From the NCBI RefSeq assembly GCF_000518805.1, contig NZ_JAEH01000025.1, positions 1 through 64,000 on the forward strand: a stretch of 64,000 nucleotides of DNA, in the 5' to 3' direction. Shown here piece after piece: positions 540 through 59,887 of this stretch (positions are counted from its first letter, which is position 1; each line of letters starts with the position of its first letter). Below the pieces are notes generated by a model. That model made no database searches. It was not told where the DNA came from and was given only the letters and a program-made list of their open reading frames with translations. Made by a program: the position numbers and the translations under genes. The DNA is from Shewanella waksmanii ATCC BAA-643 (GTDB taxonomy: Bacteria; Pseudomonadota; Gammaproteobacteria; Enterobacterales; Shewanellaceae).

Positions 540-2420
540 CTAGATTGCTTTATCGTAGTGTTTTAGTTCTGCAAGTCCAATGATTTCGAGTACGGATTTA
601 AAACGCGCCTCTGTGTGATAAGGCTTGAATCTTGGGTCTTGCCGAGTAAAAATCAGACAATTAGATTGATAGCTAATTGCTTGCTCAAGCTGCTGATACA
701 TTTCAGGTTTAAGGTCTAGCAGTGCATATACTGCCGCGGTCTCATAGGGGCAAACATAGTCGCTTTGGCGCTGCGCTTCTGCGATTAAGTCTAGGGCCTG
801 CTGGTTCTGACCTGCTGCTGCATATGACTGCGCTAATAAGATTAGTGGGTACGGCGCACGCTCACTGATTGTAACGCCGGTTAGCATAAGTTTGTGGCTT
901 TGGGTTAAGTCTCCAGTCAAGTACTTAGCTACCCCTAAATTTAGGTGCATGAATGCCGAATCTGGGTGTTGAGTTAGTTTAATACGCCCCCATTGTTGGG
1001 CAGTCTCAAGCTCATTGATCATCATTAGTGCCCACATTCCCCAGTCGGCTACTTCTTCATTTAAGGGGTCGAGTTTGTCAGCTGCGGCTAGGTGATCTAG
1101 GACTTGCTGATTCTGTCCCATTGCGGCAAAAAACAGGGCGAAACCAAGTTGCGTGAGCGCGTTATCAGGCTCTTGCTGTTGGGCTTTGTTTAACATTTTC
1201 CAGGCCTCATCCCATTGCCACGCGTGCACATAGGCTAGTCCGAGCTGACTCATGACCTGTGCCGAGTCAGGATTAATACTAAGTATCTCTGTTGTTGCCG
1301 CAATCACTTTTGGCAATATTAGGCTGGGTTTGTCGAAGGTGGTCATCAGTATGCGATAGGCCGTTGCCTTTGCCACATAAGCGGCTTGAGCTTCAGGATC
1401 CAGTGCTATGGATTGGTTGAAGTGCTCAATGGCGTTAAGAACAGCTTGATGATTCATCAGTGAAAGCTGGTATTGTCCCAAAACAAAATGCTCGTACGCG
1501 GCTAGGTTGTATGGTCTAGCCGTTGTGTTGCTGGTACTGTCTTGCGCCATAACTGCTTTTAGCGAACTAGCCACTGCTGATGTGATGTCGTTTTGAATAC
1601 TAAAGGGACTCTGTTCTCGTAAGTTCATTTGATAATCACCATCCCAGATAAGTTGACCACTAGCTAGGTGCTCAAGTTCTATTGAGATACGCATATTCTC
1701 ATTGCTATCAATACTAACCATACCGTCTAACACGTAGTCTAAATCAGGCAATTGTTGGCGAATATGCTGCCGATTCTTCTGTCCCTTAAACGTAAAAGAG
1801 GAAGGTGGCGGAACGGTTTTTACCTGATTGACTTTGCGTAAATTCTGAATGAGTTCTCGGGTGATTTGATCGGAAAAAGGCTGCCACTTTAGTGGATTCT
1901 GGCTCGAAACGGACAAAGGCAATACTAATAAATAGGGGGGTGTATGCGGCGTACTTTGTCTTGATATTAATGCATAAATGCCCAGTGTTACTGCAATTAA
2001 GCTGACGAAAACCAGCATCACTCGCCAGTGTGCGAGTCGTTGCCATCGATGGGCTGGACGAATGGTTTTCTTTTGTGGTGGCCTATCATTATGATGGCTA
2101 TTCTCCTTGCTTGTCTGGTCAAGAATGGCGACAAACTGATAGCCCCTTGTTCGTACTGTCTTTATAATCCGCTGCCGCTCGCCATCATCGCCTAGTAAGT
2201 TGCGCGCCGTTTTGATGTGGTTGCTAAGAGTGGTATCCGATACGGATCGTCCTTGCCAGATACTTTCGAATAGCTCATCTCGCGAGACGACTCGATGGCG
2301 ATGTTCAATGAGGTACAAAATAACATCAAATACTTTTGGTTCAATAGCGACCTCTGTTCCAGCAAGGCGCACAGTATATTGTGTCGAGTCGATCTCAATA
2401 TTTTCAAATCGATAGTGCAA
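540..2420 (-). CDS. CadC/ToxR-like membrane-anchored transcriptional regulator with TPR-rich C-terminal domain
   Basis: The N-terminal ~100 residues form an OmpR/CadC-type winged helix, with a recognition region around VSDTTLSNHIKTARNLLGDD and a wing near IIKTVRTRGYQF. A Lys/Arg-rich linker and a single hydrophobic span (VMLVFVSLIAVTLGIYALI) follow. The rest, about 450 residues, is alpha-helical with repeated TPR-like segments (for example AYVAKATAYRI, AQVMSQLGLAYVHAW) and should lie in the periplasm. I chose the TTG at 2420 because GGAGC lies about 6 nt upstream; an in-frame start at 2483 would add 21 residues with no family character. The divergent gene at 2581 is a natural target candidate, but no ligand or regulon can be read from sequence. 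Confidence 0.85.
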   Translation of the reverse strand: MHYRFENIEIDSTQYTVRLAGTEVAIEPKVFDVILYLIEHRHRVVSRDELFESIWQGRSVSDTTLSNHIKTARNLLGDDGERQRIIKTVRTRGYQFVAILDQTSKENSHHNDRPPQKKTIRPAHRWQRLAHWRVMLVFVSLIAVTLGIYALISRQSTPHTPPYLLVLPLSVSSQNPLKWQPFSDQITRELIQNLRKVNQVKTVPPPSSFTFKGQKNRQHIRQQLPDLDYVLDGMVSIDSNENMRISIELEHLASGQLIWDGDYQMNLREQSPFSIQNDITSAVASSLKAVMAQDSTSNTTARPYNLAAYEHFVLGQYQLSLMNHQAVLNAIEHFNQSIALDPEAQAAYVAKATAYRILMTTFDKPSLILPKVIAATTEILSINPDSAQVMSQLGLAYVHAWQWDEAWKMLNKAQQQEPDNALTQLGFALFFAAMGQNQQVLDHLAAADKLDPLNEEVADWGMWALMMINELETAQQWGRIKLTQHPDSAFMHLNLGVAKYLTGDLTQSHKLMLTGVTISERAPYPLILLAQSYAAAGQNQQALDLIAEAQRQSDYVCPYETAAVYALLDLKPEMYQQLEQAISYQSNCLIFTRQDPRFKPYHTEARFKSVLEIIGLAELKHYDKAI

Positions 2421-2580
2421 TTTTTGCTCCCTGCTATTGGCTCCATATAAACCACTCTTGCAAATCAGAGCATGCACAATCATTAGCTAAAAATTAGTCA
2501 ATGGTTATCTAAACCCCAAGTAAAGCGTAGCAATAGATCATAGGTTTAGCGGTAGGTTATTGCAAAAAAGGAAATTTGGT

Positions 2581-3324
2581 ATGCCGACACCCATTGAAGT
2601 TCTATTTGATCCACTGTCGCTATTCTTATTGGCCATTTATGCCGTACTAATGCTGATTGAATGGCTGATTCCAGCACGACAATTACCCACAGTTAAAGGG
2701 TGGGTGCCCAAATCGCTAATCGTATTTGTGATCTATTTTTACTTATCGACCTATTTACCCTTGCTATGGGATAAATACTCTTTGGCCTATCAGTTGTTTG
2801 ACTTGACTGAAGCCAATCCTATTATCAGTACTTTGATAGCCATACTCGTGTTTGAGTTGTTGATCTATTGCTGGCACCGGGCGATACATCGCAACAATTT
2901 TCTATGGCGATCGTTTCATCAAATGCACCATAGTGCAGAGCGGATCGATACGTTTGGTGCTTTCTATTTTAGTCCATTAGATATGATGGGGTTCACCTTG
3001 ATGGGCAGCCTAACCTTGTCGCTTGGGGTGGGGTTAGCCCCAGAAGCAGTTAGTGGTTTTCTCTATATCACGATGTTTTTAGCGGTATTCCAGCATATCA
3101 ATGTCAAAACACCACATTGGCTTGGATATATCATTCAGCGCCCAGAAAGCCACAGCGTACACCACCAACGGGGCGTCCATGCCTATAACTACTCAGACCT
3201 TCCTCTTTTTGACATTCTATTTGGCACTTTCAACAATCCCAAACACTTTGTTGACCAAGCAGGGTTTTACGAAGGAAGTTCAACCAAAATGAAAGACATC
3301 TTGTTATGTAGAGACATTTCTTAA
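2581..3324 (+). CDS. Sterol desaturase / fatty acid hydroxylase superfamily membrane protein
   Basis: The protein is a 247-residue di-iron membrane oxygenase. It has about four hydrophobic spans and the histidine clusters of the family: HRAIHR near residue 103, HQMHH near 117, and HSVHHQRGVH near 195. The family hydroxylates or desaturates lipid substrates using two irons bound by these His residues; the substrate here is unknown. The ATG at 2581 is preceded by AAAGGAA at a good distance, and a TTG seven codons upstream is a worse start. The gene is divergent from the CadC-like regulator and followed by a hairpin at 3353-3388. Confidence 0.88.
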   Translation: MPTPIEVLFDPLSLFLLAIYAVLMLIEWLIPARQLPTVKGWVPKSLIVFVIYFYLSTYLPLLWDKYSLAYQLFDLTEANPIISTLIAILVFELLIYCWHRAIHRNNFLWRSFHQMHHSAERIDTFGAFYFSPLDMMGFTLMGSLTLSLGVGLAPEAVSGFLYITMFLAVFQHINVKTPHWLGYIIQRPESHSVHHQRGVHAYNYSDLPLFDILFGTFNNPKHFVDQAGFYEGSSTKMKDILLCRDIS

Positions 3325-52458: not shown

Positions 52459-53421
52459 ATGTTTGCCCCAATCCTCCAAACGTGTAGTTTGTCATCTCGT
52501 CAAAACTGGCGGCAGTTTAGTGTAAGCAGCGCGCGAGCGTATTTATTGGTGCTGCTTTGCAGTGGCTTTTTGATGTCCCAGCCATTGCGAGCAGCCTCGC
52601 TAGGCGAATTTAATCAACAAAGCAGTGTTTATCGACCTTATTTTGTTGAGCTTTATACCTCACAAGGTTGCAGCAGTTGTCCACCTGCAGAGCAATGGCT
52701 ATCAAGCTTTCGTGACCATCCCCAGTTGTGGAAAACCCTATTTCCGTTGGCGTTTCACGTAAGCTACTGGAACTGCATCGGCTGGAAAGACCCCTACAGC
52801 AAACGCGCGTTTAGCCAGCGCCAATATGATCATCTTAACGCCAAAAACACCGGCCAAGTCTACACCCCACAGTTTGTGATTAACGGCAAAGAATGGCGCG
52901 GCTGGTTCGACCGTGAACTCGGTGATGTATTTAACCAGCCACCAGAAAAAGTTGGCGTACTGTCAGTCAGCATTAAAGCCAAATCCGCACAGGATAAAGC
53001 CGAAAATACAGCCACAGCCACAGCTACAGATACTGCCACAGGCACCGCAGGCACGGCCTTACATCTACAAGCCAGTTTTGAACGCTACAGCGACAATCAA
53101 AGTAGCAAGACCGCAAACCAAAGCAGCAACCAACAAGCAAGCACGGTTATCAACGACGAAAGCCCCATAGAACTGCATCTTGCTTTGGTCGGCACCGGCT
53201 TTACCACTAACGTCACCCGCGGTGAAAACCGCAACAAAGTACTAAAGCATGACTTTACTGTGCTGCAGCATCAAGTGTTTACGCCACATACCACTAACCC
53301 CAGCCATTTTAGCGGGGAAGTGACCATCGACAACAAGCACTCAGGCAAAGCAGAGAAACTCGTGTGGGTAGCATGGATAGTGCAAAACCACAGGCCGATA
53401 CAGGCGGTAGGTGGGCTGTAA
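52459..53421 (+). CDS. DUF1223 family thioredoxin-fold exported protein
   Basis: After a long N-terminal segment with a signal-like stretch (YLLVLLCSGFLMSQPLRAA) the DUF1223 domain begins with FVELYTSQGCSSCPPAEQWL; the CxxC at about residue 71 resembles a thioredoxin active site. FHVSYWNCIGWKDPYSKRAFSQRQYDH and YTPQFVINGKEWRGWF are further family motifs. An insert at about residues 178-230 is low-complexity (Thr/Ala, then Ser/Asn/Gln), encoded by an ACAGCC microrepeat at about 53008. Function of the family is unknown. Confidence 0.85.
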   Translation: MFAPILQTCSLSSRQNWRQFSVSSARAYLLVLLCSGFLMSQPLRAASLGEFNQQSSVYRPYFVELYTSQGCSSCPPAEQWLSSFRDHPQLWKTLFPLAFHVSYWNCIGWKDPYSKRAFSQRQYDHLNAKNTGQVYTPQFVINGKEWRGWFDRELGDVFNQPPEKVGVLSVSIKAKSAQDKAENTATATATDTATGTAGTALHLQASFERYSDNQSSKTANQSSNQQASTVINDESPIELHLALVGTGFTTNVTRGENRNKVLKHDFTVLQHQVFTPHTTNPSHFSGEVTIDNKHSGKAEKLVWVAWIVQNHRPIQAVGGL

Positions 53422-53437
53422 ACTAGGCTGTATGTGC

Positions 53438-53623
53438 TTATGAATTGTCTGAGCAGAGCCGTGTCACAGCCATGAGGATTGAAGGCAGCAACACGATAGT
53501 AGTGTATAGTCCAATAAGAAAACCAGCACTCGCTCCATAATTTATTAGTAAAATACATAAGACCAAAGCGACAACATTCAATGTGAGTGTGTAACCGATA
53601 AATGCTGGGTTGAGCTTTTTCAT
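53438..53623 (-). CDS. Small hydrophobic membrane protein (61 aa)
   Basis: Two hydrophobic spans (about residues 8-29 and 33-54) follow a short basic N-terminus MKKLNP. AAGGA lies 9 nt upstream of the ATG. It is convergent with the DUF1223 gene and at the left border of the AT-rich island. No family recognised. Confidence 0.55.
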   Translation of the reverse strand: MKKLNPAFIGYTLTLNVVALVLCILLINYGASAGFLIGLYTTIVLLPSILMAVTRLCSDNS

Positions 53624-53735
53624 GTGTCAAAATCCTTGTCGATACATTGTTATCTTTTTACCAGTGTTTATCATAGTTTATGGTGTAATGACTTAATACA
53701 AGTTTTCAAAAATAGTATTATAGTCGCTTCTCAAT

Positions 53736-53806
53736 AGTTGCTTAGTTGCTTAGTTGCTTAGTTGCTTAGTTGCTTAGTTGCTTAGTTGCTTAGTTGCTTA
53801 GTTGCT
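53736..53806. repeat. 8-bp tandem repeat AGTTGCTT, nearly nine copies
   Basis: Eight perfect copies from 53736 to 53799 and a ninth cut at seven bases (to 53806). It is at the left edge of the island, 100 bp from the end of the methyltransferase gene and outside any coding frame I support. Perfect short repeats of this length are prone to slippage. Confidence 0.95.
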
Positions 53807-53905
53807 AAGTTCTTTTGGTTGTATTTTTTCTTAGAAAACATGCGCTAAGCAGTGATTGTGCGGCGAGGGGGCTTAAGGTATGTCATCATTTTCAAGCCCC
53901 TTAAC

Positions 53906-55291
53906 CTAGTTTATCAGTTTGCTCTCTTTTCTGATTTTTACGGCTTCATCAATTCTTGATTGCATTAGCTTCGCTACTGCTGTGAAAACAGGTACAACAA
54001 CTGAATTGCCAAATTGGCGGTATGCTTGTGTATCAGATACAGGAATTATGAATTCGCTTTTCCCGGGCTCATCAAATCCCATTAGTCGAGCACATTCTTT
54101 TGGCATTAGTCTGCGGGGCCTATTCTTTTGGTTTTCTGGATTAGAAAAATCAAGTTCACCTAATTCTTTATTCCAGCCTTGGTCAATTAAAATTTCTGAA
54201 CCATCTTTATGGTAGCGGGCAGATAATGTTCTAGTTATTACGTCAGGCTTTTTCGGGTCGACTAAACCGTAGCCAAAACCGTTGCCTTTAGCTTGATGTT
54301 TTTTCGCGTATTCGTATAGATATTCCCATAAGCGAGGTGTCAGGGTATATTTTGCTTTTTCGGCCTCCGTAAGGCTATTAAGAAGGCTCTCAAAGGAAGG
54401 GGTATGCTCAGGAAACATAATGTTTTTTAGAGTGAAACCATTAGCAATATTTAAATCACGTTTGAAACCAACTAGTACAATTCTTTCTCTGTGTTGAGGA
54501 AGAAAGTTTTTGCCGTCAATAATTTTTGGGTCCTTACTTCCTGAACCTTCAAAGTCTATATCTGCTACGTCATAACCTAATTCATCAAGTGCCTGAGTTA
54601 TTACTTTGAAAGTATTACCCTTATCATGACTTTTCAGGTTTTTTACGTTTTCCAATACAAATGCACTTGGTTGTCTTGCTTTAATTATTCGGCACACATC
54701 GAAAAATAAAGTGCCTTGAGCTTCGCATTCGAAACCGTGAGCTCTTCCTAGAGAATTCTTCTTAGATACCCCAGCAAGTGAGAAGGGTTGACAAGGGAAG
54801 CCCGCGAGCAGGACATCATGCTCTGGAATATTATCTCGTATGTTTTTTGCAGCAACAGTTTCAGAAATGGTATCACTGTCTTCTGTTAGAGTTATTGTAC
54901 GTATGTCTTGGTTAAAGGAATGGGCAACCGGGTCACTATAGTAATTAGCTTTATAGGTACGGACTGCATATTTGTTCCATTCGCTAGTAAAAACACATTG
55001 ACCGCCGATAGATTCAAAGCCCTTTCTTATCCCACCTATTCCTGCAAATAGATCTATAAATTTAAAGCTAGGATTGTCATAGTGTTTGGGACGCTTGGGC
55101 AAAAGGTCATTTAAAATTCGGAATTCTTCAGAAGTAAGTTGTTTATCTGATTTCCCTTTTAGAATGCGATTGATTGTTTCTCTGCACCAGTCATTTTCAG
55201 TCCACGGATTTAGTTTGGCTGCTATTTGTTTTTGATCGTAAATTTCTAAAAGTTTAGTAAGTAGTTCAAGTGTTTCTTCGTTACTAGCCAT
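53906..55291 (-). CDS. DNA (cytosine-5) methyltransferase, M.EcoRII/Dcm type
   Basis: The 461-residue C5 methyltransferase has motif [23 protein letters not shown], the catalytic Cys in motif [13 protein letters not shown] in motif VI ([11 protein letters not shown]), QHRERI in [18 protein letters not shown] in IX and [11 protein letters not shown] in X. Whole segments match M.EcoRII and Dcm as I remember them ([50 protein letters not shown]-like region), so the target is probably the inner C of CCWGG. A divergent EcoRII-like endonuclease gene follows 193 bp away. Confidence 0.95.
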
Positions 55292-55484
55292 GGAGTGCTT
55301 CTTTACAAAATCTGAGGCCTAATACTTTATCACTCGTTTGACCCAGAGTACAGCTGAGTACTGTATAAAAACACATGTCAAAGGATGTTAGTGATAACTA
55401 GTTGTTGATATGAATAGAGTAGTAGTATTATTTTTATAAGTAGATAAAAATAAATGATAATCTTATGGTTGTTATTATATAAGG

Positions 55485-56747
55485 GTGGTGGCTTTGTACG
55501 AGACATTAGAAGATATTTTTGAAGCTGTAGCGGTCAAATACCTAAAAGCCGTTGATGTAAAGAGAGGCAACAATAACAAGAAGGGCTCAAACCAACATGA
55601 AATTGGCGGGTTAGTTAAGGCTGGATTTGGACGAAAGCTTGGCTTCCCTATTGATGGTAAAACCCTAAAATTTGCCGCTAAGATGGTATATATTTCTGAT
55701 GATGAAAGTGAACCCATTGTTTGTGAAGACACCGTTTCTTGGTACGACACCCGCTATAAAGACCCTCTAAGGGGGGCTGAATATAGACTTTATTATCATG
55801 ATAATGAAGTTACACAGAGCTTTAGAGAAGATGACTTTTTGTTGATTGCCCTTACAAAAGAGCAAACATTGCTGCTTGTTTTTGCGCCCAAAGGTAGTTC
55901 CGCAGAGGTTCAACTCAAAAGCATTTTTGGTGCTTTGAATCTTGATATAGATACAGCTTTAATAAATGTACCAGTCAAAGAAGCCTCTTTGGTTATTCCT
56001 GTGCGAATAGTATTAGCTCAGCTTGGAATAGATGTTAGTACTTCAAAAGTAGATGATGAAAGTAAGCTTACTGAGCTACTTAATCGGTTTGATTCAAATT
56101 TCCCCAAGACTCGTGTTTTTTCTGAATATTCACGGAAACTAGTTCAAAGTGAGGTTTGTGCAGTTGAAGCGCCAGACCAAACTTTACTTGCTTGGATGGA
56201 AGCTGAAGAGCAAAACTTCAGGCTACTTGAAAGGCACATTGTATCTGAACAGTTGAAGCTAGGGTTCGGAGGCTCAGGGCATGATGTTGATGCTTTCATC
56301 AAATTTTCTCTTAGTGTTCAGAATAGAAGGAAGTCTCGAGTTGGGCATGCTTTTGAAAATCATATAGAGGCTATCTTTATAGCAAATAACCTTTCTTATA
56401 AGCGTGGTGGAAAGACTGAAGGTAAGCAAACTCCAGATTTTTTATTTCCAAGCCAAAAGGCATACCAGAACAAGCGGTTTGATGAGAGAAAACTGAGAAT
56501 GTTAGGTGCTAAAACATCATGCAAAGACCGATGGAGACAGGTACTAGCAGAAGCAAAGCGCATAGAGACAAAGCACCTATTAACGTTGGAACCTGCTATT
56601 TCAGAAGAGCAAACTACACAAATGGTGCACTTGAAACTTCAGTTAGTTGTTCCAAAGCCTCTTCATGAAACATATACACCTAATCAGTTAGGGTATTTGC
56701 AGACATTTAAAAGTTTTATCGATGAAGTTCAAGCCATTTCGGGTTAA
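55485..56747 (+). CDS. EcoRII-type restriction endonuclease
   Basis: The C-terminal ~170 residues match the EcoRII catalytic domain: SVQNRRKSRVGHAFENHIEAIF, TPDFLFPSQKAY (the PD) and LGAKTSCKDRWRQVLAEAKRI (the K with KDRWRQ). The N-terminal ~170 residues correspond in place to the EcoRII effector-binding domain (NQHEIGGL, WYDTRYKDPLRGAEYRLYY) but look much diverged. EcoRII is a type IIE enzyme that cuts CCWGG when a second site is bound. Starts at GTG 55485, GTG 55488 or TTG 55494 are possible; AAGGG at 55481-55485 fits the TTG best. It is divergent from the methyltransferase gene. Confidence 0.9.
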   Translation: MVALYETLEDIFEAVAVKYLKAVDVKRGNNNKKGSNQHEIGGLVKAGFGRKLGFPIDGKTLKFAAKMVYISDDESEPIVCEDTVSWYDTRYKDPLRGAEYRLYYHDNEVTQSFREDDFLLIALTKEQTLLLVFAPKGSSAEVQLKSIFGALNLDIDTALINVPVKEASLVIPVRIVLAQLGIDVSTSKVDDESKLTELLNRFDSNFPKTRVFSEYSRKLVQSEVCAVEAPDQTLLAWMEAEEQNFRLLERHIVSEQLKLGFGGSGHDVDAFIKFSLSVQNRRKSRVGHAFENHIEAIFIANNLSYKRGGKTEGKQTPDFLFPSQKAYQNKRFDERKLRMLGAKTSCKDRWRQVLAEAKRIETKHLLTLEPAISEEQTTQMVHLKLQLVVPKPLHETYTPNQLGYLQTFKSFIDEVQAISG

Positions 56748-56838
56748 ACCGAGTTAAAAGGTTGCATTTGTCTAGGGAATAAGAAGAGCCTAAATATTAG
56801 GTAAAGGATAGTTTTTTAGGTTATGGTATCTCCCCCCT

Positions 56839-56873
56839 GAAAGCCTAGAAATTTCATGGCTTCTAATATTTTT
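56839..56873 (+). terminator. Possible terminator after the endonuclease gene
   Basis: An imperfect stem AAGCC-TA-GAAA / TTTC-A-TGGCTT is followed by CTAATATTTTT. It lies about 95 bp after the endonuclease stop. Confidence 0.4.
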
Positions 56874-56904
56874 CACCAGCCTGCTATCACAAGCGTCCCA
56901 ATAC

Positions 56905-57100
56905 TTATTCCACGTTCTGGATTTACCCAAGCATTTTCTCAATCAGTACTTTAAGCTCTACTGCTGCGGCAGTGACTTCAGCGCTGATAGATTTAGAGGC
57001 TAAGGTGTTAGACTCGCGGTTGAACTCTTGCATCATAAAGTCTAAACGGCGGCCTTGGGCGCCACCTTTTTTAAGGATGCGGCGAGTTTCTTCAACGTGG
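56905..57100 (-). pseudogene. Displaced 3' fragment of yicC (196 bp)
   Basis: On the minus strand this segment encodes the last ~65 residues of YicC (ending QNVE and a TAA stop, with ILKKGGAQGRRLDFMMQEFNRES upstream), aligned without gaps to 59024-59219. Similarity stops abruptly at 57100, at the same codon as 59219, where AT-rich sequence leading to the hipBA operators begins. The copy is diverged at scattered positions, densest near the 3' end (56921-56935), so it is not a recent duplication. It separates the restriction-modification genes from hipBA. Confidence 0.92.
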
Positions 57101-57125
57101 ATATTGAGTTTTAACTATCATTTTA

Positions 57126-57250
57126 ATGCCTATAGCGTGTTGTTTTTTGTTTAACGCTTATAGCGTGTAATTGTTGATTTAACGCCTGTAGCGTGTAATT
57201 ATCGTTTTAACGCTTATAGCGTGTGAATCTTGTTTTAACGGTTGTGGCGT
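57126..57250. promoter_or_regulatory. Five operator-like direct repeats at exact 28-bp period upstream of hipBA
   Basis: The palindromic core ACGCT-TAT-AGCGT (or close variants) starts at 57126, 57154, 57182, 57210 and 57238. Copies 2 and 4 are perfect palindromes; the others differ at one to four positions. Each core is preceded by TTTTAA or TTTAA and followed by GTGTAA or GTGT. The last copy ends 41 bp before the hipB start. HipB proteins repress their operon through repeated inverted sites, so these are the likely operators. Confidence 0.8.
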
Positions 57251-57291
57251 GTAAACTTGGTAATAGCGATAGGGTTTATAGGTGGGAAATA

Positions 57292-57573
57292 ATGAAGGTG
57301 ACTAATTCAAAACAGCTTGCTGTGTACCTTAAAGATGCGCGACTCAATATGCAGTTGTCGCAAAGCAAGGTAGGTAAGAAGGTTGGTATTCGTCAGGATA
57401 CGGTTTCAAATTTTGAACAGAACCCAGATTCCACTAAATTGGAAACATTGTTTAAGATTTTATCTGCTTTAAACCTTGAGCTAGATATTAAGGTTAGAAA
57501 TCCTGAACTGGTGTCGACGCTGGTTGAAGATAAACACATCCCCACTGACGATGAATGGAAAGAGGAGTGGTAA
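57292..57573 (+). CDS. hipB: HipB-like antitoxin/autorepressor (HTH_XRE)
   Basis: The 93-residue protein has a Cro/CI-type helix-turn-helix: LAVYLKDARLNMQLSQSKVGKKVGIRQDTVSNFEQNPDSTKLETLFKILSAL, followed by a beta strand LDIKV that would pair in the HipB dimer. HipB neutralises HipA and represses the operon. The ATG at 57292 has GTGGGA upstream. Its stop shares one base with the hipA start (TAATG). Confidence 0.92.
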   Translation: MKVTNSKQLAVYLKDARLNMQLSQSKVGKKVGIRQDTVSNFEQNPDSTKLETLFKILSALNLELDIKVRNPELVSTLVEDKHIPTDDEWKEEW

Positions 57574-58907
57574 TGGCTGTTCTTGATGTTTATATGAATG
57601 GCTATTTTGTGGGAGAGTTGACTAAATCTGCTACAGGTTCCCATCTATTTAAGTATGCTGCGCGATGGTTAAATACGTCAAATAGTCGGCCTATCTCTTT
57701 ATCTATGCCGTTGCAAAAACAGGCCTATAAGGGCGATGAGGTTTATAACTTTTTCGATAATCTACTGCCAGATAATATTGAGGTGAGAAACAGAATTGTT
57801 GCTCGCCATAATGCGCAATCGACACAGGCGTTCGATTTATTAGCGAAAGTTGGGCTAGACAGTGTAGGGGCATTGCAGTTCATTCCCCATGGACAAGTCG
57901 CTTTCGATGTTAAAAAAATTGAATCTAAGCCTTTATCTGATGCGGCATTGGAAAAAGTATTGAAGGGGTATCAGTCTGATATCCCGCTAGGTATGCTAGC
58001 GGATGAAGATGATTTTCGAATCTCTATTGCCGGTGTCCAAGAGAAGACAGTTTTACTCAATCTCGATGACCAATGGCAGTTGCCAATTAATGCCACACCC
58101 ACGACGCATATCATTAAGCTACCTATTGGTGAGATACAAAGTCATTCGCATACTATCGATATGTCTGACAGTGTTGAAAATGAGTACCTATGCATGATGA
58201 TTGCGCGGGAGTTTGGTTTAGTTATTCCGCAATGCTCAATCATTAAAGTGGGAGACATTAAAGCGCTTGCTGTAGAGCGTTTTGATCGTAAGTTGTCGAG
58301 TGATGGCAAATGGATTATGCGATTACCTCAAGAAGACTTTTGCCAGACATTGAATGTTCCTTCTGCTAAAAAATATGAAAGTCATGATGGACCGGGGATT
58401 GCACAAATAATGCCTTATTTATTGGGCTCTATAACCCCAGAGCGAGATAGATATGATTTCATGAAATCTCAGGTGCTATTTTGGCTGCTCGCTGCAACCG
58501 ATGGGCATGCGAAGAACTTTTCATTGTTTATTGAGGCGGGTGGCGGATATCGATTAACTCCCTTTTACGATATTTTGTCTTTATATCCAGCCATTGGTGG
58601 CAAAGGTGTAAATATCCGTAAGGCAAAATTGGCAATGGGACTTAAAGCAACCAAAGGTAAGGAATATCGGATAGCGCAGATCTTCCCAAGGCACTTTATC
58701 CAGACCGCTAGGGCGGTTGGGTATGATACTGACGAAATGGTTGCTATTTTGCTTGAGATTGCAGATACAGTTGATTTTGTGATTAATCAGGTTCAAAAGC
58801 AGCTACCGAATGATTTTCCAGCGCATATCAGTGACCCAATACTTGAAGGTGTAAAGCAAAGAGCAGCAAGACTGACGGTTGAAAATGTTCAAGGAGCCTG
58901 GAAGTAG
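57573..58907 (+). CDS. hipA: HipA-type Ser/Thr kinase toxin
   Basis: A 444-residue HipA protein. The N-terminal domain is LDVYMNGYFVGELTKSATGSHLFKYAARWL. The flexible ATP loop region DFRISIAGVQEKTVLL (about 145), the Lys-containing strand THIIKLP, catalytic loop LLAATDGHAKNFSLFI (about 300-320) and metal site PFYDILS are present. E. coli HipA phosphorylates glutamyl-tRNA synthetase and causes dormancy; relatives differ in target. It is translationally coupled to hipB. All key kinase motifs look intact, so it should be active. Confidence 0.93.
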   Translation: MAVLDVYMNGYFVGELTKSATGSHLFKYAARWLNTSNSRPISLSMPLQKQAYKGDEVYNFFDNLLPDNIEVRNRIVARHNAQSTQAFDLLAKVGLDSVGALQFIPHGQVAFDVKKIESKPLSDAALEKVLKGYQSDIPLGMLADEDDFRISIAGVQEKTVLLNLDDQWQLPINATPTTHIIKLPIGEIQSHSHTIDMSDSVENEYLCMMIAREFGLVIPQCSIIKVGDIKALAVERFDRKLSSDGKWIMRLPQEDFCQTLNVPSAKKYESHDGPGIAQIMPYLLGSITPERDRYDFMKSQVLFWLLAATDGHAKNFSLFIEAGGGYRLTPFYDILSLYPAIGGKGVNIRKAKLAMGLKATKGKEYRIAQIFPRHFIQTARAVGYDTDEMVAILLEIADTVDFVINQVQKQLPNDFPAHISDPILEGVKQRAARLTVENVQGAWK

Positions 58908-58959
58908 AATGAAGAGCGGGCTGCGTCAGCGTAAACTTATCTTTCTCTTATTTATCTAA

Positions 58960-58983
58960 CAAAAAGCCCAGCATTTGCTGGGC
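58960..58983 (-). terminator. Rho-independent terminator of yicC
   Basis: The perfect 7-bp stem GCCCAGC / GCTGGGC with a 4-nt loop is followed on the minus strand by TTTTTGTT. It lies 41 bp past the yicC stop and 53 bp past the hipA stop. The displaced yicC fragment at 56905 has no such terminator after it. Confidence 0.9.
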
Positions 58984-59023
58984 TTCACATCTTTACCAAT
59001 CCACTTTAAAACCAGAAAAACGC

Positions 59024-59887
59024 TTACTCTACGTTCTGGATCTGCTCGCGCATTTGCTCAATCAGTACTTTGAGCTCGACCGCTGCTGCCGTGACTTCAG
59101 CGCTGATGGATTTAGAGGCTAAGGTGTTAGATTCGCGGTTGAATTCTTGCATCATAAAGTCTAAACGGCGGCCTTGTGCGCCACCTTTCTTAAGGATGCG
59201 GCGAGTTTCTTCAACGTGGGCGTCGAGGCGGTCCATCTCTTCGGCAACGTCCATCTTTTGTGCCAAAATCACCATCTCTTGCTCTAGACGTGCTGGGTCT
59301 AAATCTTCTTTAATTTCTGCTAAACGGTTAGTGAGCTTTTCGCGTTGCCATTGCATAACGGCAGGCATGTGCTCACGTACTACGGCTACTTGTTCAGCAA
59401 TGGCGTCAAGGCGGGTGTCTAGCATGGTTTTAATGGCTTCGCCTTCGCGGCCACGGGCTTCAATAAATTGGTCTATGGCGCTGTCAAAGGCGGTAAGCAG
59501 CTCTTTGCCTAGGGCATCCATGTCTTGCTCTGAGCTCGACATCACACCTGGCCAGCGTAGTACGTCAACCACGTTTAGCTCGCCTTGGCTAGCTTGGTCA
59601 CGTACCCAGTTGGCCGCTTGAATCACTTGCTTGGCTAAGTCTTGGTTGAGTTGTAGCTCGTTGTTGTCATCGTCTTTGATGTCGTAACGCAGGTTCACTT
59701 CAACTTTACCGCGGTTTAATCGCTTGCGCAGGCGGTCTCGCAGCATGGGCTCTAGGTTGCGAAAATGCTCAGGCAGACGCAGATAGGTTTCTAAATAGCG
59801 CTGGTTAACAGAGCGAATTTCCCATGAGGCATTACCCCATTGTGCTTTGTGCTCTATTCGAGCGTAGGCTGTCATGCTTTGGATCAT
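59024..59887 (-). CDS. yicC: YicC family endoribonuclease-like protein
   Basis: The 287-residue protein has the family N-terminus MIQSMTAYARIEHKAQWGNASWEIRSVNQRYLE and C-terminus RLDFMMQEFNRESNTLASKSISAEVTAAAVELKVLIEQMREQIQNVE. YicC proteins are RNases that act on small RNAs in E. coli. The gene is complete and its 3' end is duplicated at 56905-57100, marking this gene as the integration target of the island. The divergent neighbour is rph, 302 bp away, as in E. coli. Confidence 0.95.
   Translation of the reverse strand: MIQSMTAYARIEHKAQWGNASWEIRSVNQRYLETYLRLPEHFRNLEPMLRDRLRKRLNRGKVEVNLRYDIKDDDNNELQLNQDLAKQVIQAANWVRDQASQGELNVVDVLRWPGVMSSSEQDMDALGKELLTAFDSAIDQFIEARGREGEAIKTMLDTRLDAIAEQVAVVREHMPAVMQWQREKLTNRLAEIKEDLDPARLEQEMVILAQKMDVAEEMDRLDAHVEETRRILKKGGAQGRRLDFMMQEFNRESNTLASKSISAEVTAAAVELKVLIEQMREQIQNVE

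Follow-up and report, generated by a model that had tools for sequence, protein, structure and literature searches.

Background

Antibiotic persistence is studied with HipBA as a model, and what is known of the structural basis of HipBA control comes largely from Escherichia coli. For Shewanella oneidensis, a HipBA structure (4pu3) and autoregulation through HipB-operator binding were reportedly described by Wen 2014. The operator sites of E. coli K-12 begin at -134, -106, -67 and -39, i.e. in steps of 28, 39 and 28 bp. Passages of PMC3376134 describe repression by K-12 HipB through cooperative binding to four operators, and bending of the DNA by 70 degrees in the HipBA complex. The S. oneidensis-type complex is characterised in part of PMC10627512 as open like HipBST and unlike the tight E. 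coli complex. Here we describe a hipBA locus in a 64-kb stretch of Shewanella waksmanii DNA (referred to below as the window) that carries five evenly spaced candidate operators, and compare their spacing with that of other hipBA loci.

The candidate operator array

Five copies of a palindromic 13-mer start at positions 57126, 57154, 57182, 57210 and 57238, with 1, 0, 0, 0 and 2 mismatches, respectively, to the motif given in the initial annotation. The exact 28-bp period claimed there is borne out by the direct repeats (steps of 28, 28 and 28 bp), and TRF reports the same array with period 28 and 4.8 copies (57122-57254). Self-identity of the array is 0.79 at lag 28 and 0.80 at the harmonic 56, all remaining lags from 20 to 60 giving at most 0.43. 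The best lag of 20-60 never exceeded 0.54 in 20,000 mononucleotide shuffles of the array stretch, and the next-best place in the window reaches 0.68, at an 8-bp tandem repeat near 53735. The 13-mer alone, with up to 2 mismatches, has 6 matches in the window against 4.29 expected, which is about chance; it is order and spacing that make the finding.

What is conserved is an imperfect palindrome of 20 bp, and 8-bp linkers separate successive units. On the forward strand, operator 1 (57123..57142; PWM score 19.3) is the most diverged, with 3 mismatches to the consensus, and is followed by operators 2 (57151..57170; 31.9), 3 (57179..57198; 31.1), 4 (57207..57226; 29.2) and the proximal operator 5 (57235..57254; 29.2), whose frame begins 57 bp upstream of the hipB ATG. 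A scan of the whole genome (4.97 Mb) for the 20-bp motif, allowing 3 mismatches at most, returned the five array sites and one stray single site (contig C3), the reversed control pattern giving one match. The five repeats are very probably HipB docking sites in front of hipBA.

Among 125 units compared, the operator reads TTA(A/C)C, then a looser middle, then TAGCGTGTAA, the right arm being nearly fixed. The palindrome had been said to differ from the E. coli operator. This is true of its letters, but positions 2-19 of the 20-bp unit coincide with the 18-bp 5-N8-5 frame of TATCC-N8-GGATA. Proximal sites favour TTACCTG and distal sites TTAACG. The sequence of the distal linkers is almost unconstrained (39 distinct among 45, only 28-bp steps being taken), and the last linker, AACTTGAT (57227..57234, forward strand), is the sole one conserved in relatives. 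We read it as part of the -35 region, and the proximal operator would therefore lie over the promoter. A promoter consensus scan gave no site on the forward strand and one on the reverse strand (0.5 in shuffles). A terminator-like hairpin at 57154-57166 (0.5 in shuffles) was not credited. No Rfam family reached its cut-off in 56700-59100, and a distant DNA search of plasmids with the array as query returned no match.

The hipBA operon

The array precedes hipB (57292..57573, forward strand), encoding a 93-aa HTH antitoxin (HTH_3) that is the presumed repressor, and hipA (57573..58907, forward strand), whose 444-aa product is an E. coli-type Ser/Thr kinase toxin (Couple_hipA and HipA_C). The antitoxin gene lies directly before the gene for the two-domain HipA kinase, the hipA ATG overlapping the hipB stop codon by 1 bp. 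Among solved structures, this HipA is nearest to that of E. coli (2wiu, E 1.3e-149), and it matches the S. oneidensis protein 4pu3 with E 8.4e-25. It is the only HipA_C match of the genome, and in the HipA alignment the positions of the catalytic E. coli residues D309 and D332 hold aspartate throughout. HipB scores below the NCBIfam HipB cut-off (72.1 bits vs. 79); that model, built around the name of the enterobacterial protein, is not treated as defining. For HipB and HipA, the matches given by PADLOC were no more than weak. By gene order, HipA type and operators in an 18-bp frame 27-28 bp apart, the operon would belong to the E. coli-type HipBA class, the use of a 27-28 bp spacing as a class feature being a proposal of the present analysis.

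Operator sites in Shewanella

A HipB match at E 1e-10 or better was found in 40 of 129 genomes, that of S. waksmanii included. From these, 42 hipB upstream regions were scanned; locus L017, which has two hipB copies, was counted twice and a late-starting piece (L041) was dropped. The PWM was trained on the same 42 regions, which favours the motif, spacing being no part of the training. Sites were found in 38 of the 42, bearing out the initial assignment of the sites to hipBA. Control DNA at the same threshold gave 8 matches in 91,668 strand-bases. The number of sites is 0, 1, 2, 3, 4 and 5 in 4, 2, 4, 14, 15 and 3 upstream regions, respectively. One locus (L029) has a single clear site. The array had also been called unusually long. 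At five sites it belongs to the longest seen (3/42), but it is not unique; three or four are usual, and K-12 has four. Among 89 gaps, 78 are of 28 bp and 8 of 27 bp; gaps of 43, 46 and 56 bp occur once each, the last of these representing a missing site. Among the 38 upstream regions with sites, 35 have a last site that starts 54-61 bp ahead of hipB. Of the four site-less regions, two belong to HipB proteins of 44% identity, L038 is truncated by the end of its contig, and L040 has a broken hipB.

We also scanned the 129 genomes for pairs of TAGCGTGT sites 14-44 bp apart. Such pairs occur at 46 places in 26 genomes, and 38 of the 46 lie upstream of a hipB match; counted from the list, 36 of these 38 pairs are at 28 bp, one at 27 and one at 43. 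Six further pairs are unlike the operator in their letters and stand 32, 27, 20, 22, 14 and 14 bp apart. The reversed control of the pair scan gave 9 places in 4 genomes. Arrays lacking hipB, which the initial annotation had held would count against the assignment, come to two instances in the 129 genomes, a decayed hipBA (G095) and an orphan pair (G087). In the former the array still stands in front of the decayed genes (L046, about 2290-3240). In the latter an operator pair at 28 bp (L045, about 2987-3022, minus strand) stands without an E. coli-type hipBA; a hipBA of a different type lies about 700 bp downstream of the pair.

A rearranged copy was seen at L180 (7500-8900; also L017), where two operators and hipB form an inverted duplication with the copies face to face. 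The stretch between the copies is short and, by eye, contains a yicC end. The 17 kb fetched contain no hipA match, and AAG stands in place of the aligned start codon.

Genomic surroundings

Left of the array lies a 3'-end fragment of yicC (56904..57100, reverse strand), a direct repeat of the end of the intact gene (179 of 197 nt identical), which itself is found beyond hipA (59024..59887, reverse strand). The yicC homology stops at 57100, 22 bp before the first operator frame. The intact copy and the 197-nt end copy thus flank hipBA, as in an island of the GI21 / GISpuPO1 type inserted at the yicC 3' end. According to parts of PMC8978831, yicC is a known genomic island site in Shewanella, and a different HipAB stabilises an island there. 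The array adjoins the yicC fragment at this known island locus (PMC8978831, in part), and the repeats could be recombinase arm sites or some other part of a yicC mobile element, unrelated to hipB. We consider this extremely improbable. Within the stretches fetched, yicC is present at 6 of 20 Shewanella hipBA loci, three of the six also having an end fragment beyond the array, while at the other 14, some with short stretches, hipB and sites are present without yicC. In addition, the site pairs of the 129 genomes lie mostly upstream of hipB, as given above, and neither an integrase nor an excisionase gene was seen among the ORFs of at least 60 aa in 53421-59024, four of which were given to Pfam. 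The array is therefore tied to hipB rather than to yicC, in agreement with the initial view that it came in with hipBA.

Divergent genes for a C5 DNA methylase and an EcoRII-C endonuclease occupy 53906-56747, left of the yicC fragment; they probably form a type II restriction-modification pair, carried by the same short island. Between the methylase ORF and its left neighbour lie 9.6 copies of the 8-bp tandem repeat TAGTTGCT (53735-53811); repeats of this kind can vary in copy number. At the window's start, TRF found a 55-bp tandem repeat (1-122; 2.2 copies, 98% matches).

Operator spacing beyond the genus

Spacing was also scored with a motif-free test, in which 20-bp palindromes similar to each other are sought and the lag between them is recorded, at three threshold settings chosen by us. 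The 118 loci entered comprised 14 plasmid loci, hand-picked from the top 40 of 1,549 records, the best 80 of 584 genome loci, 23 of 24 viral loci (fragment L166 being left out) and K-12. For the viral contigs, HipA alone as query gave nothing and the alignment as query gave the 24 loci. Nine loci without a hipB ORF by rule, five with a wrongly picked ORF (L102, L109, L122, L131, L162), five with less than 120 bp upstream of hipB and two near-copies (L070, L155) were dropped, leaving 97. This set includes the Shewanella loci L064, L065 and L071, apparently also in the set of 42, and an E. coli copy (L151). Among the matches listed, the loci span Cyanobacteria, relatives of Geobacter and of Legionella, Chlorobi and Spirochaetes.

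A lag of 27 or 28 bp was found in 87 of the 97 upstream regions (drawn in part from the best 80 of 584 genome loci), compared with a mean of 1.04 and a maximum of 4 in 100 shuffled sets of the same loci. With harmonics set aside, the runner-up among pairs of adjacent lags reached 5 of 97. At the stricter settings, 72 and 68 of 97 loci show lag 27/28, against 0.37 and 0.13 in shuffles. Such counts overstate independence, because the loci share descent. Half-sites vary greatly between the diverse loci.

The pitch was then mapped on a quick HipA tree of 92 rows, 19 of whose 89 inner branches are poorly supported. Labels were taken from a chain count that admits steps of 26-29 bp only and has no shuffle control; some chains are register-shifted and Shewanella arrays are undercounted, which weakens the observation that no chain is longer than four. 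The label 28 (46/92 rows) requires 8 changes on the tree against a shuffled mean of 31.0, and the label 27 (30/92 rows) requires 16 against 25.5, none of 500 shuffles being as low in either case. The mixed label (16/92 rows) shows no clustering (131/500). The pitch thus clusters on the HipA tree and is kept despite diverged site sequences.

The regular period had been read by the initial annotation as pointing to a helical-phase constraint. The 42 Shewanella upstream regions, the 97 diverse loci and the HipA tree agree that the period is constrained, but phase alone is insufficient. Spacings that exceed the pitch by one helical turn are seldom seen (lags 38-40 in 5/97 loci, near chance except for K-12 and its copy), so distance is held as well as phase. 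An unbroken pitch is nevertheless not obligatory, given the 43-, 46- and 56-bp gaps in Shewanella and the 39-bp step of K-12.

Operator spacing in other HipA subfamilies

A HipA type with about 25% identity was examined at 18 loci, at one threshold only and without shuffles; lag 27/28 was absent and 41 bp was found in nine. Another 20 Shewanella loci in seven clusters, hand-picked among the matches listed, gave no lag of 27/28 at either threshold. Their pitches, again among the matches listed, include 31 bp in 7/9 loci of one cluster, 30 and 60 bp in 3/3, 40 bp in 2/2 and 50 bp in 3/3, and the HipA of the 50-bp cluster matches the S. oneidensis 4pu3 protein over its whole length (E 2.8e-286). 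Lag 27/28 was thus found in 0 of 38 loci of other HipA subfamilies (20 of them among the matches listed), in controls that were all taken from a single genus, are related by descent within clusters and were scored without shuffles. Absence of 27/28 in other subfamilies is the firmer part of this result, the subfamily-specific pitches being leads.

These comparisons bear on whether the period merely records how a 28-bp unit was duplicated in tandem, with no function in the spacing. Tandem copies keep a period without selection, and arrays of relatives do differ by whole units, as in L015 with four sites and L016 with five next to the same outer flank. However, the linkers have diverged in sequence while their length is constant, 27/28 bp is kept with different site sequences in K-12 and in 87 of the 97 upstream regions (drawn in part from the best 80 of 584 genome loci), and other HipA subfamilies keep other steps (partly among the matches listed). 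A mere duplication trace is accordingly very unlikely. Spacing is kept across phyla while the site letters drift, so that the geometry of the bound complex appears to be under selection, and the spacing may well be dictated by the shape of the proteins in that complex.

Proposed mechanism

We are confident, short of certainty, that the five repeats are operators of an E. coli-type hipBA, with the proximal site on the promoter and a pitch set by the geometry of the complex. Each 20-bp site would take one dimer of the window's HipB, and in the HipBA complex on DNA two HipA molecules would flank each HipB dimer. Occupancy of the proximal operator, over the putative promoter, would repress the operon. 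The pitch (28 bp here, 27-28 bp in the family) would determine how far apart, and at what angle, HipA molecules carried by adjacent HipB dimers come together, and neighbouring HipBA complexes would therefore stabilise each other, the toxin staying inactive on the DNA. At 10.5 bp per turn, 28 bp amounts to 2.67 turns and three steps to eight turns.

We lean towards HipA-HipA contact as the reason for the pitch. It is possible, if rather doubtful, that the pitch reflects HipB itself or DNA bending instead. HipB alone binds the K-12 operators cooperatively (passages of PMC3376134), and the pitch could equally track HipB, which evolves with HipA. Against this stand several points, none of them decisive. 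Sites of 20 bp with 8-bp linkers leave space for flanking HipA, and HipA dimerisation on operator DNA has been reported: parts of PMC6581861 describe the HipA N-subdomain as taking part in dimerisation during DNA binding, and the G22S change is believed to interfere with dimerisation of operator-bound HipA (PMC7029023, in part). Moreover, the S. oneidensis-type complex, open according to the text seen of PMC10627512, has a 50-bp pitch among the matches listed. The hipA7 residues G22 and D291 are kept in 91/99 and 96/99 aligned HipA rows (K-12 counted twice), a conservation that may have other reasons.

With HipA-HipA contact as the preferred reading, we tentatively put forward, as a speculation, that each HipBA subfamily might have its own operator pitch, serving as a DNA ruler that matches the size of its complex and is read via toxin-toxin contact. 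Long uniform arrays, the present one among them, might then arrange HipBA in a row on the promoter and store toxin, with operator number tuning the amount. The pitches would be 27/28 bp for the E. coli type and 30, 31, 40, 41 or 50 bp for others (partly among the matches listed). The array is a known kind of operator that reveals a testable spacing rule. Natural variants, with 27 or 28 bp, one to five sites and uniform or paired arrangement, allow tests of the E. coli-based account. The pitch may help to locate HipB operators without known sequence, and may distinguish promoters of the E. coli type from promoters that belong to other HipA subfamilies.

Comparison with known systems

The E. coli spacing and a remark on intervals in Caulobacter are prior art. 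As far as searched, three things are new: a pitch shared across phyla, the way it clusters on the HipA tree, and the subfamily-specific pitches; no earlier statement of a 27/28-bp pitch across phyla or of subfamily pitches was found in literature titles, abstract openings and passages, Schumacher 2015 and Wen 2014 being outside the scope of this search.

The locus described here shares with E. coli K-12 hipBA the gene order, the HipA type, the 18-bp 5-N8-5 frame and the 28-bp step within site pairs, but K-12 has four sites as two pairs 39 bp apart and other letters, whereas the present array has five at a uniform 28 bp. For the hipBA1 and hipBA2 promoters of Caulobacter crescentus, passages of PMC7029023 remark on a series of inverted repeats whose intervals fit the E. 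coli complex. The S. oneidensis 4pu3 type belongs to the same genus and presumably has HipB-operator autoregulation in common with the present locus; it differs in its distant HipA and in its 50-bp pitch (3/3 loci among the matches listed). Legionella HipBST likewise has evenly spaced operators, three in number, before its hip operon, but with 53-bp gaps between them, a split toxin and a different motif (PMC10653801, in the parts available). S. putrefaciens GI21 also carries HipAB on a yicC-type genomic island in Shewanella, unlike the present locus in having hipA-hipB order and a 152-aa HipB, and with no operator array described in the accessible portions of PMC8978831.
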